From assembly GCF_029360725.1 (NCBI RefSeq), contig NZ_JARKMY010000014.1, positions 317,201 through 381,200 on the forward strand: DNA of 64,000 nucleotides. Direction: 5' to 3'. The position numbers and the translations under genes were made by a program. Source of the stretch: Chryseolinea sp. H1M3-3. Lineage in GTDB: Bacteria > Bacteroidota > Bacteroidia > Cytophagales > Cyclobacteriaceae. The notes under the pieces were generated by a model that did not search any database, was not told the DNA's origin, and saw only the letters and a program-made list of their open reading frames with translations. This document shows positions 18,186 to 63,586 of this stretch, piece by piece. The first letter of the stretch is position 1, and each line of letters opens with the position of its first letter.

Positions 18186-19142
18186 CTAAAATAATTCTTT
18201 TGCTATGCGGTAAATCGGATCGGACTTACCCATGCTATAAAAGTGAAGTGTTGGCACATTGTGCTTCATCAGTTCTTTCGACTGCTGTATACACCATTCA
18301 ATCCCTACTTCCTTGACAGCAGCGTTATCTTTGCATTTTTCGGCCGCGTCCGACAATTCTTCAGGAATATCAATATGAAAAGTCTTGGGAAGTATATTAA
18401 GCTGTCCTTTGCCTGTGAGGGGTTTTATGCCGGGAATAATAGGAACATTGATTCCTACCTTTCTGCATTCATCCACAAACTGAAAATATTTTTGATTATC
18501 GAAAAACATTTGCGTTACGATATACTCTGCTCCCAGATCGACCTTTAGCTTAAGATATTTCAAATCCGCTTTTAGATTAGGGGCCGAGAAATGTTTTTCA
18601 GGATAACCAGCTACACCGATACAAAAGTTGGTAGGAGAAGTGCTCTGTAACTCTTCATCCAGGTAAATACCGCGGTTCATTTTAACAACCTGTTCCAACA
18701 GCTCGGAGGCATATCTATATCCATCTGGTTCGGGAATAAATCGTGACTCTGTTTTAATAGCATCGCCCTGGAGCACAAGGACATTATCGATACCGAGAAA
18801 GTGAAGGTCGATTAGAGCATTCTCAGTCTCTTCACGTGTAAATCCGCCGCAGATGATATGTGGCACAGTATCTACCTTGTACCTGTTTTGTATCGCTGCA
18901 CAGATACCAACAGTGCCGGGCCTTTTCCGCGTTGTTCTTTTCTCAAGAAGTCCGCTTGGCGTTTTTTTATAGACATACTCCTCCCGATGATAAGTTACAT
19001 CAATAAATGGTGGTTTAAATTCCATCAATGGATCGATATTGTCAAACAACATCTGAATATTCTCACCCTTCAGCGGAGGCAGAATTTCAATTGTAAATAA
19101 CGATTTACCGTTTGCTCTTTTCAAGTGTTCACAGACTTTCAT
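18186..19142 (-). CDS. metF: Methylenetetrahydrofolate reductase
   Basis: A 318-residue FAD-dependent enzyme that reduces 5,10-methylene-THF to 5-methyl-THF, the methyl donor for MetH. Family features include SLFTIEILPPLKGENI at the start, PFIDVTYH, PHIICGGFTREETENALIDL, NVLVLQGD, the central FCIGVAGYPEKH, AEYIVTQMFFDNQKYF and IPGIKPLTGKGQL. Length is normal for bacterial MetF. It is the last gene of a leftward methionine cluster (metH N-part, metH C-part, four-helix-bundle gene, metF), so it may depend on the SAM riboswitch upstream. The inserted four-helix-bundle gene ends only 19 bp before the metF ATG. Confidence 0.95.
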   Translation of the reverse strand: MKVCEHLKRANGKSLFTIEILPPLKGENIQMLFDNIDPLMEFKPPFIDVTYHREEYVYKKTPSGLLEKRTTRKRPGTVGICAAIQNRYKVDTVPHIICGGFTREETENALIDLHFLGIDNVLVLQGDAIKTESRFIPEPDGYRYASELLEQVVKMNRGIYLDEELQSTSPTNFCIGVAGYPEKHFSAPNLKADLKYLKLKVDLGAEYIVTQMFFDNQKYFQFVDECRKVGINVPIIPGIKPLTGKGQLNILPKTFHIDIPEELSDAAEKCKDNAAVKEVGIEWCIQQSKELMKHNVPTLHFYSMGKSDPIYRIAKELF

Positions 19143-19157
19143 GGACGATGGGCGTAG

Positions 19158-19189
19158 GTGTTTACGTGTTTATGTGTTTGGGTGTGGAT
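19158..19189. repeat. Octamer array, metF side (4 units)
   Basis: Four 8-bp units read on the plus strand: GTGTTTAC, GTGTTTAT, GTGTTTGG, GTGTGGAT. The array contains the stop codon and the last eight or so codons of the four-helix-bundle gene, so the C-terminal residues STPKHINT are encoded by the repeat itself. Confidence 0.85.
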
Positions 19190-19560
19190 GTATCTCGGCG
19201 ATTGACTAAATATTTAATTAGCGCAACCGTAAGCGCTTTAACTTCATCAGATTTTGCCTGAAGTTCTTGTGTTTTTTCTTGCTCTAAATAATTCAAATCG
19301 TGCAGAACGTAAAGAATACTTTTCACTTCCGAAACAGAATTACTTGCCGTATCTAGATATCTAATGAACTCTTTAGCGCTAAATTTTCCAAAACCTTCGG
19401 CGATATTGTTCATTGTTGAAAGGGCAGCCCTTTTTATTTGACTTTTTGTATCGAAATCTTTGGCGAGTTTTCCATGCTCACTTACAAGATAAATTTCTTT
19501 TACAAGCTTGCGGGCTTCTTGCCAGCAGCGCAAATCCTCAAATTTTGTCACTTTACTCAT
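19162..19560 (-). CDS. Four-helix-bundle protein (IVP / S23 family)
   Basis: A 132-residue protein of the four-helix-bundle family first found in intervening sequences of 23S rRNA genes (TIGR02436-type), related to the Avd accessory proteins of diversity-generating retroelements. Visible signature: FEDLRCWQEARKLVKEIY near the start, QIKRAALSTMNNIAEGFGK in the middle, and FIRYLDTASNSVSEVKSIL. It is all-helical and basic and probably forms a pentamer that can bind nucleic acid (known for relatives). Molecular role is unknown. It interrupts the metH-metF order, starting 61 bp after metH and ending 19 bp before metF. Inverted octamer arrays flank it, and its stop codon lies inside one of them. 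Confidence 0.9.
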   Translation of the reverse strand: MSKVTKFEDLRCWQEARKLVKEIYLVSEHGKLAKDFDTKSQIKRAALSTMNNIAEGFGKFSAKEFIRYLDTASNSVSEVKSILYVLHDLNYLEQEKTQELQAKSDEVKALTVALIKYLVNRRDTSTPKHINT

Positions 19561-19585
19561 AATGTTTTCGAACTAATGGCTAACA

Positions 19586-19617
19586 TAAACACTTAAACAC
19601 TTAAACACTTAAACACA
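19586..19617. repeat. Octamer array, metH side (4 units)
   Basis: Three perfect TAAACACT units followed by TAAACACA on the plus strand, in inverted orientation relative to the array at 19158-19189. It lies between the four-helix-bundle gene start and the metH stop codon. Confidence 0.9.
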
Positions 19618-19621
19618 ACCC

Positions 19622-22306
19622 TTACACATCATAGGACAGATTCGGACCGAGCCATTTCTCCACTTCTTCCACGCTCATTCCCTTGCGCTGGGCGTATTCA
19701 ACAACCTGGTCTTTCTCAATTTTTCCGAGGCCAAAGTATTTTGATTCGGTATTGGCAAAGTAAAAGCCACTAACAGAAGAGGCCGGATACATGGCATAGG
19801 ATTCTGTGAGTATTATTCCAGCTTTCTCTGCATCAAGGATGTTAAACAGAATACCTTTTTCAGTATGATCCGGACAGGCAGGATAACCGGGGGCCGGACG
19901 TATGCCGCGGTATTTTTCCGCGATCAATTCGTCATTGCTCAATTTTTCATCAGCAGCATAACCCCATAATTCATGGCGTACTTTTGCATGCAAGCATTCC
20001 GCAAAAGCTTCAGCCAACCTATCGGCTAATGCTTTGACCATTATATCAGAATAATCGTCCTGGTTTTCCTTGTACTTCGCTAAAAGTTTTTCGATACCAA
20101 TACCTGCGGTTACGGCAAACATCCCTATATAATCTTGCCGTCCTGACGACTCTGGCGCAACGAAATCAGCCAGGCAAAAGTTTGGAAGATTTTGGGCTTT
20201 CTTATTTTGCTGGCGGAGAAAATGAAATGTCGCGAAGGGAGATTCGCCTTCTTTCTTAAATATTTTTACGTCGTCCTGATCCGTTCGAACCGCCGGATAA
20301 AATCCGATAACACCATTCGCCTGCAAGCTGCGGCTTTGAATAAGCTGATCCAACATTTTCTGCGCATCATCGAATAACCGTTGTGCTTCTGTTCCAACAA
20401 TGGGATCTTTAAATATTCCAGGATAACGTCCGGCTAACATCCATGTCTGAAAAAAAGGTGTCCAGTCAATATACTTTCTAAGTTCGTCCAATGGAAAGTT
20501 TATAAATGATCTGTTGCCGATGAAAGTTGGTTTTGTTATTGATGTTTTTTGCCAATCAATCTTCACCTGATTGTTTCGCGCTTCTACTAACGAGATATAA
20601 TTCTTTTGTTCTTTTCGCTTGTCGTAGTCTTCCCGGAGTTTGGCATATTCATTTTTGAATCTAGTCTTTATGTTCTTAAAGGTATCAGGGTTGATGAATT
20701 CACTCGCCACTGGAACGCTTCGAGAAGCATCCAGCACGTGAACAACAGGTCCGTCATAAACAGGATCTATCTTAACAGCGGTATGAATGCGAGACGTAGT
20801 TGCACCGCCGATTAACAACGGCATTTCCATTTTTTCCCGCTGCATTTCTTTTGCCATGTGCACCATTTCATCCAATGATGGTGTGATAAGTCCACTGAGG
20901 CCAATCATGTCCACCTTTTCGCGCTTAGCAGCTTCAATAATCTTTTCCGACGGCACCATCACACCAAGATCAACAACATCATAATTATTACAAGCCAACA
21001 CGACACCGACAATATTCTTTCCTATATCGTGAACATCGCCCTTGACCGTTGCCATCAGTATCTTTGCTGCCGGTTTATCAACACCACCGCTGTTTCTTTT
21101 CTCTTCCTCAAGATAAGGAGTGAGGTAGGCGACTGATTTCTTCATAACGCGTGCACTTTTTACCACTTGAGGTAAAAACATTTTTCCTGCCCCAAACAGG
21201 TCACCAACGACATTCATACCCGCCATGAGTGGCCCTTCAATGACGTTTAATGGTCTCCCATACTTTTGGCGCGCTTCTTCCGTGTCCTGGTCGATATAAT
21301 CAATTACGCCTTTTACCAAAGCGTGTGTAATCCTTTCCTCAACCGTCCCCTTTCGCCACTCATCATCCAGTTCTTTTTTCTTTGCAGATCCCTTAACTGT
21401 TTCCGCAAAATCAAGTAGACGTTCGGTGGCATCAGCGCGTCTGTTCAGTAAAACGTCTTCAACGCGTTCAAGCAAATCTTTGTCAATGTCATCGTACACT
21501 TCGAGCATTGATGGATTTACGATACCCATGTCCATACCAGCCTTTATGGCATGGTATAAAAATGCTGTGTGCATTGCTTCGCGCACTTTCTGATTTCCGC
21601 GAAAGCTAAAGGAGACATTGCTTACCCCACCACTAACATGCGCATGAGGAAGGTTTTCTCTGATCCATTTCGCCGCCCTGAAAAAGTCAACAGCATAGTT
21701 ACGATGTTCTTCAATACCTGTGGCGACGGGAAAAATATTAGGGTCAAAAATAATATCCTGTGGTGGGAACTTAACTTCGTTGACAAGAATATCATATGCC
21801 CGTTTACAGATTGAAATTCTTCGCTCATAAGTATCAGCTTGTCCATCTTCATCAAATGCCATCACCACAACGGCTGCCCCATAGCGCTTTACCAGTTTGG
21901 CCTGCCTGATAAATTCCTCAACCCCGCCCTTCATGCTAATGGAGTTTACAATGCCTTTTCCCTGCAGGCATTTTAGTCCGGCTTCGATGACATGCCACTT
22001 TGAAGAATCGACCATGACGGGTATACGCGCGATCTCCGGTTCGGAAGCCATCAGGTTCAAAAATTTTACCATCGCCGCTTCTGAATCAAGCATCCCTTCA
22101 TCCATATTTACATCAATCACCTGAGCCCCGCCCCGCACTTGGTCAAGTGCTACCTCCAGTGCCTCATCAAACTTGTCCTCCTTAATAAGTTTCAAAAATT
22201 TAGCGGAGCCAGTAACGTTGGTACGTTCACCGATGTTGACAAAGTTGGATTGTTTAGTGATTTCGACGGCCTCAAGACCGCTTAGCTTCAGGGTATATGG
22301 ATCCAT
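19622..22306 (-). CDS. metH: Methionine synthase, folate/cobalamin/activation part (split MetH)
   Basis: An 894-residue protein corresponding to MetH without the homocysteine domain. Order: pterin-binding (folate) domain (about 15-280, [46 protein letters not shown]); cobalamin cap and B12-binding domain (about 330-560, with [11 protein letters not shown] carrying the cobalt-ligand His near residue 424 and [13 protein letters not shown]); S-adenosylmethionine-binding reactivation domain (about 590-894, [15 protein letters not shown]). It transfers methyl from methyl-THF to cob(I)alamin and on to homocysteine held by the separate N-terminal protein encoded 177 bp upstream. The sum of both parts (1235 residues) equals a normal MetH, so this is a clean split at the Hcy-folate linker rather than decay. 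Confidence 0.95.
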
Positions 22307-23509: not shown

Positions 23510-23559
23510 AGACTCTCTTTTTTAGATGTGCTGTCCAGAGAGCCCGGCGTAAGGGGTTT

Positions 23560-23671
23560 ACTTATCTTTTCCACCAGGTGGCGGATGGGATTTAGCACAA
23601 CACCCCGCCAGACGGCAGGATAGGATGCTAAGATGTCATAGGGCCCAAACCCTCGATCTTTCTGGATAAGC
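23560..23671 (-). promoter_or_regulatory. SAM-I (S-box) riboswitch upstream of metH
   Basis: Read on the minus strand, P1 is closed by CTTATC (23665-23670) and GATAAG (23561-23566). Inside are the P2 segment with CGAGGGTTTGGGCCCTATGA (K-turn and pseudoknot loop region), a P3 arm with GCATCCTATCCTGCC, and P4 with the hallmark GTGCTAAATCC, followed by the GGAAAAGATAAG return of P1. This order and spacing match the SAM-I aptamer, which turns off methionine genes when SAM is abundant. In the 50-bp linker, CTCTCT (about 23533-23538) is complementary to AGAGAG (about 23512-23517) beside the ATG. No U-tract terminator is evident, so control is probably translational (inference). Confidence 0.88.
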
Positions 23672-23703
23672 AATGCAAATAAAAGTATAAGATGTGAATA
23701 TAC

Positions 23704-23726
23704 AAAGTGTTGAGGTGTTGAAGTTC
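23704..23726. repeat. Dispersed 23-bp repeat, copy 1
   Basis: A 23-base sequence with core GTGTTGAGGTGTTGAAG, repeated exactly and in the same orientation at 63428-63450. It has an 8-bp internal period (AAGTGTTG/AGGTGTTG/AAG). It lies just upstream of the SAM riboswitch, in a stretch with no gene. Confidence 0.8.
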
Positions 23727-23911
23727 TAATCCTTGAAGTCGTCAGCACGAGTTTGGGGGTTGGAAGCGGCCGTTGAACTTGCCAGGTCCACCTGTAACGA
23801 TCCGTTTGTGAGGAATACCCTTAACGCTTACACTGCAATCGAATTCAAAACCATACAGAAAGCAATAAGGCTTCAATAACCGGTAATATCACACAACATT
23901 GCTTAAACTTT

Positions 23912-49802: not shown

Positions 49803-49872
49803 GTAATCGGTGAGCAGTAAATAGTAAGTGGTAAGTAGTAAATAGTAAGTGGTAAGCGGTAACGAGTAATCG
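49803..49872. repeat. Array of ten degenerate heptads
   Basis: Ten consecutive 7-bp units on the plus strand: GTAATCG, GTGAGCA, GTAAATA, GTAAGTG, GTAAGTA, GTAAATA, GTAAGTG, GTAAGCG, GTAACGA, GTAATCG. The first and last units are identical, and every unit begins GT with a strict 7-bp period. It lies between the leftward MORN-repeat gene and the leftward TDO-like gene, with no ORF. It resembles, with a different unit, the octamer arrays around the four-helix-bundle gene. Confidence 0.9.
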
Positions 49873-63427: not shown

Positions 63428-63450
63428 AAAGTGTTGAGGTGTTGAAGTTC
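63428..63450. repeat. Dispersed 23-bp repeat, copy 2
   Basis: Exact match, in the same orientation, to 23704-23726. It lies 6 bp upstream of the leftward MreB-like gene start, in a 165-bp gap. A further related octamer (GAAGTGTTGG) follows it. Confidence 0.8.
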
Positions 63451-63586
63451 GAAGTGTTGGAGTTTGTTAGACTCTATGCAAGCACTGGAACTCTTAATCA
63501 TTCTGCCGGGGTTAATCTAATTTGCTGTTGTTTGTGATGGTGTAAAAGTCGTAACTTCCCTGACTATAACCAACCTTAAATATTCT

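Follow-up and report, generated by a model that had tools for sequence, protein, structure and literature searches.

A single gene for a four-helix-bundle protein (IVP), located between metH2 and metF in the 64,000-nt stretch of Chryseolinea sp. H1M3-3 DNA analyzed here (the window), is enclosed by two complementary arrays of tandem octamers, and this unit is one case of a general anatomy in which one IVP gene stands between two complementary arrays of 7-8-nt units, is lodged between genes, and is usually co-read with them. The reading that we favor, with moderate confidence, takes the unit for a repeat-armed IVP element akin to the intervening sequences (IVS) of 23S rRNA, with arrays that are copied within genomes in the way of REPINs with their RAYTs.

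With the metH2 end at 19622 and the metF start at 19142, the element comprises the entire intergenic space, so it is slightly larger than the interval (19158-19617) assigned to it by a sequence-only reading of the window. The parts of the element, and two gene-less octamer arrays found elsewhere in the window by the search described below, are as follows.

19143 to 19621, minus strand: whole element, 479 nt, the metH2 stop-to-metF start gap
19162 to 19560, minus strand: IVP gene, 132 codons, PF05635 / TIGR02436, four-helix bundle
19583 to 19616, minus strand: 5' arm (coding strand), four GTGTTTAA-type octamers, directly after metH2
19155 to 19191, minus strand: 3' arm (coding strand), degenerate octamers complementary to the 5' arm, directly before metF
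23704 to 23727, plus strand: dispersed gene-less array of AGTGTTGAGGTGTTGAAGT type, between a SAM riboswitch and the next gene
63429 to 63465, plus strand: second dispersed gene-less octamer array, from the octamer-dimer search

The two inverted octamer arrays that the sequence-only reading saw on either side of the gene are recovered by Tandem Repeats Finder, each with period 8 and 3.9 copies. The left array (19155-19185; 82% matches) is degenerate by comparison with the right one (19586-19616; 100% matches), and the unit, read on the coding strand, is GTGTTTAA. The inverted 34-nt arms (19158-19191 and 19583-19616) are 82% complementary, and the window sequence confirms that the 3' arm overlaps the stop codon and last residues of the IVP gene. 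This complementarity is greater than expected by chance: when the upstream flank is aligned with the reverse-complemented downstream one (the arm score, with a pass at 28 or more), the element scores 38 versus a median of 19 in 264 control ORFs, 5 of which reach at least 34 and 4 at least 40. The earlier proposal that the arrays would pair into a stem around the gene agrees with the predicted fold of the sense RNA (-119.2 kcal/mol, z -3.54, with 0 of 100 shuffles as stable), in which the two arms form the terminal stem.

The gene matches PF05635 (E 2.2e-31) and TIGR02436 in profile searches, and its AlphaFold2 model is a four-helix bundle (pLDDT 92) for which the best Foldseek matches are 2gsc (Xcc0516; TMq 0.81), 2rld (0.73) and, in third place, Avd (4dwl; 0.70), a protein of the Bordetella phage retroelement. 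The titles of the solved PF05635 structures, 2gsc and 2rld, call them hypothetical or of unknown function. PADLOC defense models gave 0 matches at E<=0.01, and an anti-phage role was dropped on that result.

The element shares with 23S rRNA IVS an IVP/S23 protein (PF05635) and complementary ends that enclose the IVP gene in a terminal stem. It differs in its location between the protein genes metH2 and metF rather than in an rRNA helix (the window contains no rRNA at the Rfam gathering score), in having tandem arrays for both arms, and in the dispersal of unit copies across the genome. From the available text of the source, the nearest published precedent is the Coxiella 23S IVS, a single IVS in which tandem GACAGAT heptamers precede the IVP frame and a 28-bp stem is cut by RNase III (PMC4990558). 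These heptamers and this processed stem suggest that IVS and the repeat-armed IVP element are probably one kind of entity.

IVP genes were present in 32 of 39 relatives, and their flanks were scored in an order-level set of 64 IVP frames (60 stretches taken from the host and from relatives within its order, plus the window; 3 of the 34 first loci were too short, and L060 had no IVP frame by profile). An arm score of at least 28 was found for 43 of these 64 genes, with 21 below that value, versus 6 of 264 control frames in the identical stretches and 2.7% of arm pairs formed across loci. Arrays of period 7 or 8 numbered 36 in 62.8 kb around IVP genes versus 11 in 510 kb elsewhere, and other periods from 4 to 15 had no comparable excess near IVP genes. 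A many-phylum set was obtained by scanning named genomes with the 2gsc chain (at least 80 loci from ~15 phyla, assigned by record title); among the matches listed, 62 of 79 scorable loci passed (L219 was unscorable), as did 3.4% of cross-locus pairs. In the Xanthomonas family, where 66 of 68 IVP matches from 54 genomes were scored, 61 of the 66 passed. Most IVP genes elsewhere thus do have flanking inverted arrays, so the lack of such arrays that would have counted against the sequence-only reading was not observed. IVP matches also occurred in 18 plasmid records, and all six plasmid genes examined (three from Nostoc, and one each from Calothrix, Picosynechococcus and Riemerella) passed the arm score; carriage by phages was rejected, since the phage collection gave no tblastn match to IVP.

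When both neighbors are codirectional, IVP genes of the order-level set lie in sense 45 times and antisense 11 times, a bias that modestly exceeds that of control genes (66 versus 37); for the many-phylum set, where control genes are absent and 10 of 79 loci lack a neighbor on one side, the corresponding figures are 45 and 6 among the matches listed. Individual locations are varied. For example, one Picosynechococcus plasmid element (L182) sits, arrays included, in a type III CRISPR operon, with cas10 on one side and a cmr3-type gene on the other, and an antisense element on a Nostoc edaphicum plasmid (L180) separates ribonucleotide reductase subunit genes. By eye, the boundary before an MKRRDSLK-type gene appears to be a recurrent landing place, as it contains IVP in L131, L137, L138, L146 and L123, with arrays of differing units in four of the five.

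The host genome itself has five IVP genes, of which two reach an arm score of 28 (the window gene with 38 and L077 with 40). The expectation that the window octamer would recur beside the other four was not borne out: one of the four passes and the others score 24, 22 and 23, the flanking units vary from gene to gene, and none is the window octamer, which was therefore rejected as their flank unit. Two of the three low-scoring genes adjoin short-unit repeats, and the third (L004, between tRNA genes) has no arrays; one octamer match lies ~320 nt from the IVP gene of L003. At L005 (1306-2078), an IVP copy with TTCGATA-type arrays stands beside a gene-less hairpin made of arrays of the same type.

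The repeat unit was analyzed in the 71 of 101 distinct elements that passed, and its best period was 7 in 48, 8 in 20, 10 in two and 6 in one. The heptamers have an AG core (position 1 is A in 41 of 48, position 2 is G in 43 of 48) followed by five more variable positions; their information content is 4.82 bits versus at most 4.06 in ten letter-shuffled sets, which were fitted with fewer restarts than the real one. In the 5' arm G predominates, outnumbering C in 36 of 43. Unit similarity at unrelated sites climbs with protein identity, from 0.025 (<35% identity) and 0.033 (35-45%) to 0.109 (45-55%) and 0.18 (>55%), and the unit therefore belongs to the protein lineage. All eight metH-metF IVP copies have GTGTT-type octamers, as does a 57% identical IVP gene at another site in G043. 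Tandem arrays of unequal length do not align base by base, so agreement between arms was assessed by comparing own-partner with cross-pair arm scores: across 8 orthologs the mean was 37.0 with the own partner versus 31.5 with the arms of other orthologs (permutation p 0.007), the own partner ranking first in only 2 of 8 rows. Generality, a clade-specific unit and agreement of the unit from arm to arm are thus properties of these elements.

Occupancy of the site was followed in 45 metH-metF junctions, the second of the genome sets having been picked to include IVP holders, and leaving out genomes in which metF has no adjoining metH (G008, G009, G015, G017, G167, G044 and G075). Eight junctions contain IVP and 34 do not (empty ones judged by eye), so the gene is not carried by all relatives, and the sequence-only reading is not refuted on this count. 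Filled and empty junctions occur within single genera (g1: G000, the host, and G004 filled, G001, G002, G003 and G005 empty; g38: G155 and G264 filled, G142, G204, G278 and G284 empty). By eye, G010 has a decayed IVP with both arrays and G101 a solo arm. The G019 junction (L102, 920-1493) contains, in place of IVP, a PF13366 PD-(D/E)XK gene, which we take to be of the GxxExxY type, between two repeat hairpins, possibly a parallel repeat-armed element. A different IVP element separates the two metH parts in G004; at that position G005 has an IVP remnant (by eye) and G000-G003 have none. The spacers of filled and empty junctions are too diverged to place element boundaries or a target-site duplication, and the metH-metF element could be ancient, passed on vertically and lost many times.

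The octamer also occurs apart from IVP genes. Searching with the dimer pattern GTGTTKAAGTGTTKAA, with one mismatch permitted and overlapping matches rather than sites counted, gave 64 matches in the host, 78 in G004 and 173 in G020, all of which bear IVP, and 0, 1, 0 and 1 in four congeners that lack a metH-metF IVP; the reversed pattern gave 0-2 in those seven and 0-3 in the whole set of 23 genomes. Five further metH-metF IVP holders had 0 (G301), 3 (G264), 5 (G021), 5 (G258) and 7 (G155) matches and the remaining genomes without it had 0-4, so octamer load fails to separate holders from non-holders outside G000, G004 and G020. The 64 host matches fall at 49 places, mostly away from IVP genes (2 adjoin one).

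The loci examined comprise 31 host octamer loci outside the window and three within it, plus 33 stretches of G004 that include nearly all of its octamer places except one at a contig end and the IVP itself. Some of the dispersed arrays fold as gene-less hairpins. Flanks are shared with G004 sites at only 3 of 31 host sites by blastn at 1e-10, a fraction that may be too low because the G004 contigs are short and such a search could miss diverged orthologs. Stretches of 33-36 nt are nonetheless up to 100% identical between unrelated sites of the two genomes, which points to copying; near-identical gene-less arrays and hairpins thus occupy mostly non-shared sites. Paired arrays at these host and G004 loci are convergent in eleven cases and divergent in none. 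Within 20 nt of a gene start or stop are 46 of 87 arrays, 28 with the C-strand before a start and 18 with the G-strand after a stop, whereas the two opposite orientations account for 0 of 87 and random positions would give ~1% per class; the orientation that is found matches the geometry of the IVP arms.

Two other repeat features of the window lie apart from the element. The array at 23704-23727 is directly upstream of a SAM riboswitch (23559-23672, minus strand), which itself precedes metH1. At 49809-49869 there is a gene-less GGTAAGT-type heptamer array that matches the arms of the L038 IVP element in the congener G004 (scores 58 and 55, with 30 the next best among 64 elements); this unit was absent from host IVP genes in that comparison, and the array is possibly an orphan.

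The placement of arrays near gene ends bears on the main rival explanation, in which IVP is an RNA-binding regulator of translation that controls itself through its own arms and has as its targets the dispersed arrays before start codons, gained for their usefulness. Such a regulon would account for the 20 of 34 host arrays whose C-strand precedes a start codon by no more than 20 nt and for the resemblance of the protein to Avd, and there is a parallel, in the portion of the source available, in the TAACTGA heptamers before Beggiatoaceae start codons that have been suggested as sites for a post-transcriptional regulator (PMC4679880). It explains less well why 18 of the 46 arrays near gene ends follow stop codons, why some arrays are gene-less hairpins, and why so few host sites (3 of 31) have flanks in common with G004 when 33-36-nt stretches at unrelated sites are up to 100% identical. 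We therefore regard a regulon of this type as unlikely, if the most serious competitor, and regulation and dispersal may both be true.

A second explanation is purely structural: the complementary arms would fold away or cut out the IVP frame, movement would be rare, and the dispersed arrays would be decayed IVP elements. The window stem (z -3.54), the G010 junction (a decayed IVP that keeps both arrays) and the solo arm of G101 are compatible with this, as is the Coxiella 23S IVS with its heptamers, 28-bp terminal stem and RNase III cleavage, as described in the accessible text (PMC4990558). Decay of this type predicts poorly, however, the absence of any IVP trace from the 31 host octamer loci and 10 Luteimonas hairpins, the close identity of arrays whose sites in two genomes are unrelated, and the 188 GGGAATC dimer matches in a Xanthomonas genome that has one IVP gene, so we consider it improbable.

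The Xanthomonas family provides a further case. IVP genes of three Xanthomonas species have GGGAATC-type flanking arrays, and the same heptamer, in the text available from Rehm et al. (PMC4692102), is reported from two Xanthomonas genomes (186 places and 70 convergent pairs in the first, 183 and 75 in the second), on the antisense strand near starts or the sense strand near stops, and generally without mobile-element association; in its unit, convergent pairing and placement near starts and stops, this repeat resembles the arrays described here. The same source gives GGGGA(C/T)T as a Nostoc heptamer repeat, and no reported source for the Xanthomonas or Nostoc repeats was found in the text available (PMC4692102); the words 'four helix' and 'intervening' were absent from the searchable text of PMC4692102 and PMC4679880. 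In our searches, GGGAATC dimer matches numbered 188, 86 and 91 in three Xanthomonas genomes, 140 in Luteimonas and 19 in Dokdonella, versus 0-1 in ten other IVP-bearing genomes. The STRR of cyanobacteria are further heptameric repeats.

Across 119 genomes of the family, at least 5 GGGAATC dimers were found in 28 of 54 with IVP versus 8 of 65 without it (p 3.2e-6, kinship ignored), with fewer than 5 in 26 of the 54. When genomes were divided by flank unit, in classes defined after the arms had been inspected, GGGAATC was dispersed in 21 of 26 genomes with GGGA-type flanks, 3 of 6 with GTGA-type flanks, 4 of 22 with other units and 8 of 65 without IVP, and GTGATTC in 6 of 26, 5 of 6, 2 of 22 and 4 of 65, respectively; a first grouping by flank unit had given GGGAATC in 21 of 27 versus 7 of 27 (p 3e-4, kinship ignored). 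The type and load of dispersed repeat thus go with IVP presence and flank unit in this family, and both here and in the host's genus arrays co-distribute with IVP of the matching unit. The 8 genomes that have at least 5 dimers and no IVP require gene loss or another source. They are also what would be expected, together with the 11 period-7/8 arrays in 510 kb away from IVP genes, if the arrays came first, with replication slippage or another host process making heptamer hairpins at gene boundaries into which IVP genes insert. This order of events is very improbable in our judgment, as units at unrelated sites track the clade of their IVP, both the load and the type of arrays accompany the IVP unit, and the four congeners without a metH-metF IVP have 0-1 octamer matches.

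In RAYT-REPIN systems a gene for a Y1 transposase is flanked by its own repeats, each a single palindrome, short gene-less hairpins of the repeat are dispersed, and the unit is specific to the gene lineage. The IVP units share the repeat-flanked gene, the dispersed gene-less hairpins of the flanking repeat and the lineage-specific unit; they differ in that the protein is a four-helix bundle (in this comparison the window gene matches PF05635 alone and is not a Y1 HUH transposase) and in that the repeat is a tandem array of 7-8-mers. Since the element lies outside rRNA and lacks a Y1 transposase, it is a strict member of neither this class nor 23S IVS, and the best reading from these comparisons may be that it is RAYT-REPIN-like in its genetics and 23S IVS-like in its RNA form. 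It resembles diversity-generating retroelements (DGR) in the fold shared with Avd (Foldseek TMq 0.70) and differs in that the host genome has no RVT_1 match.

Three steps can be proposed for a repeat-armed IVP element with copied arrays. First, the arms would pair in the mRNA and enclose the IVP frame in a stem, in the manner of a 23S rRNA IVS, which would allow an insertion between cistrons to be tolerated, with trimming by RNase III likely. Second, IVP, which has a homopentameric Xanthomonas relative and the fold of the DGR protein Avd, may recognize its own unit. Third, host enzymes, together with recognition by IVP, would copy arms or hairpins of the unit to other gene boundaries, so that IVP would be to its arrays what a RAYT is to its REPINs. 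The window element has no transposase or reverse transcriptase gene, and no movement event or intermediate was seen in the compared genomes and junctions. RVT_1 had no match at E<=0.001 in eight IVP-rich genomes (G000, G004, G007, G010, G011, G020, G021 and G033, with 4-13 IVP genes each; several of the genomes searched here and for Y1 are drafts), so the element can apparently do without a host reverse transcriptase, and dependence on one was rejected. Dependence on a Y1 transposase was likewise rejected, because no match was found in the IVP-bearing G008, G014, G016, G035 and G038, with the same caveat on drafts; for Y1_Tnp in G008 (93% complete, 5 IVP genes) the threshold was E<=0.001. The original suggestion of a minimal mobile or RNA-structural element is therefore supported in part: the anatomy recurs and the arrays are dispersed, and transposition, binding of IVP to its arrays and processing by RNase III are what we infer from them.

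A broader proposition, to which we would give nearly an even chance, is that the heptamer and octamer repeats scattered in bacterial genomes have in IVP genes their missing autonomous partners. These would form an element class of many phyla that uses a small Avd-like bundle to carry 7-8-nt tandem arrays to gene boundaries and itself encodes no transposase, nuclease or reverse transcriptase, and for which 23S rRNA IVS would be one special landing site. Among the matches listed in a literature search limited to papers other than subscription papers and preprints, none linked IVP genes with inverted short-unit arrays. Linking IVP to arrays by sequence gives both the PF05635 proteins and the published heptamer repeats a testable role. 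In addition, IVP genes have been reported in cas loci, in the text available from two sources (PMC3936711; PMC10910872), and a repeat-armed element may account for their presence there, as IVP also occurs within other kinds of operon. If IVP does spread its arrays, this would be a way of seeding the leaders and tails of many genes with a common motif.
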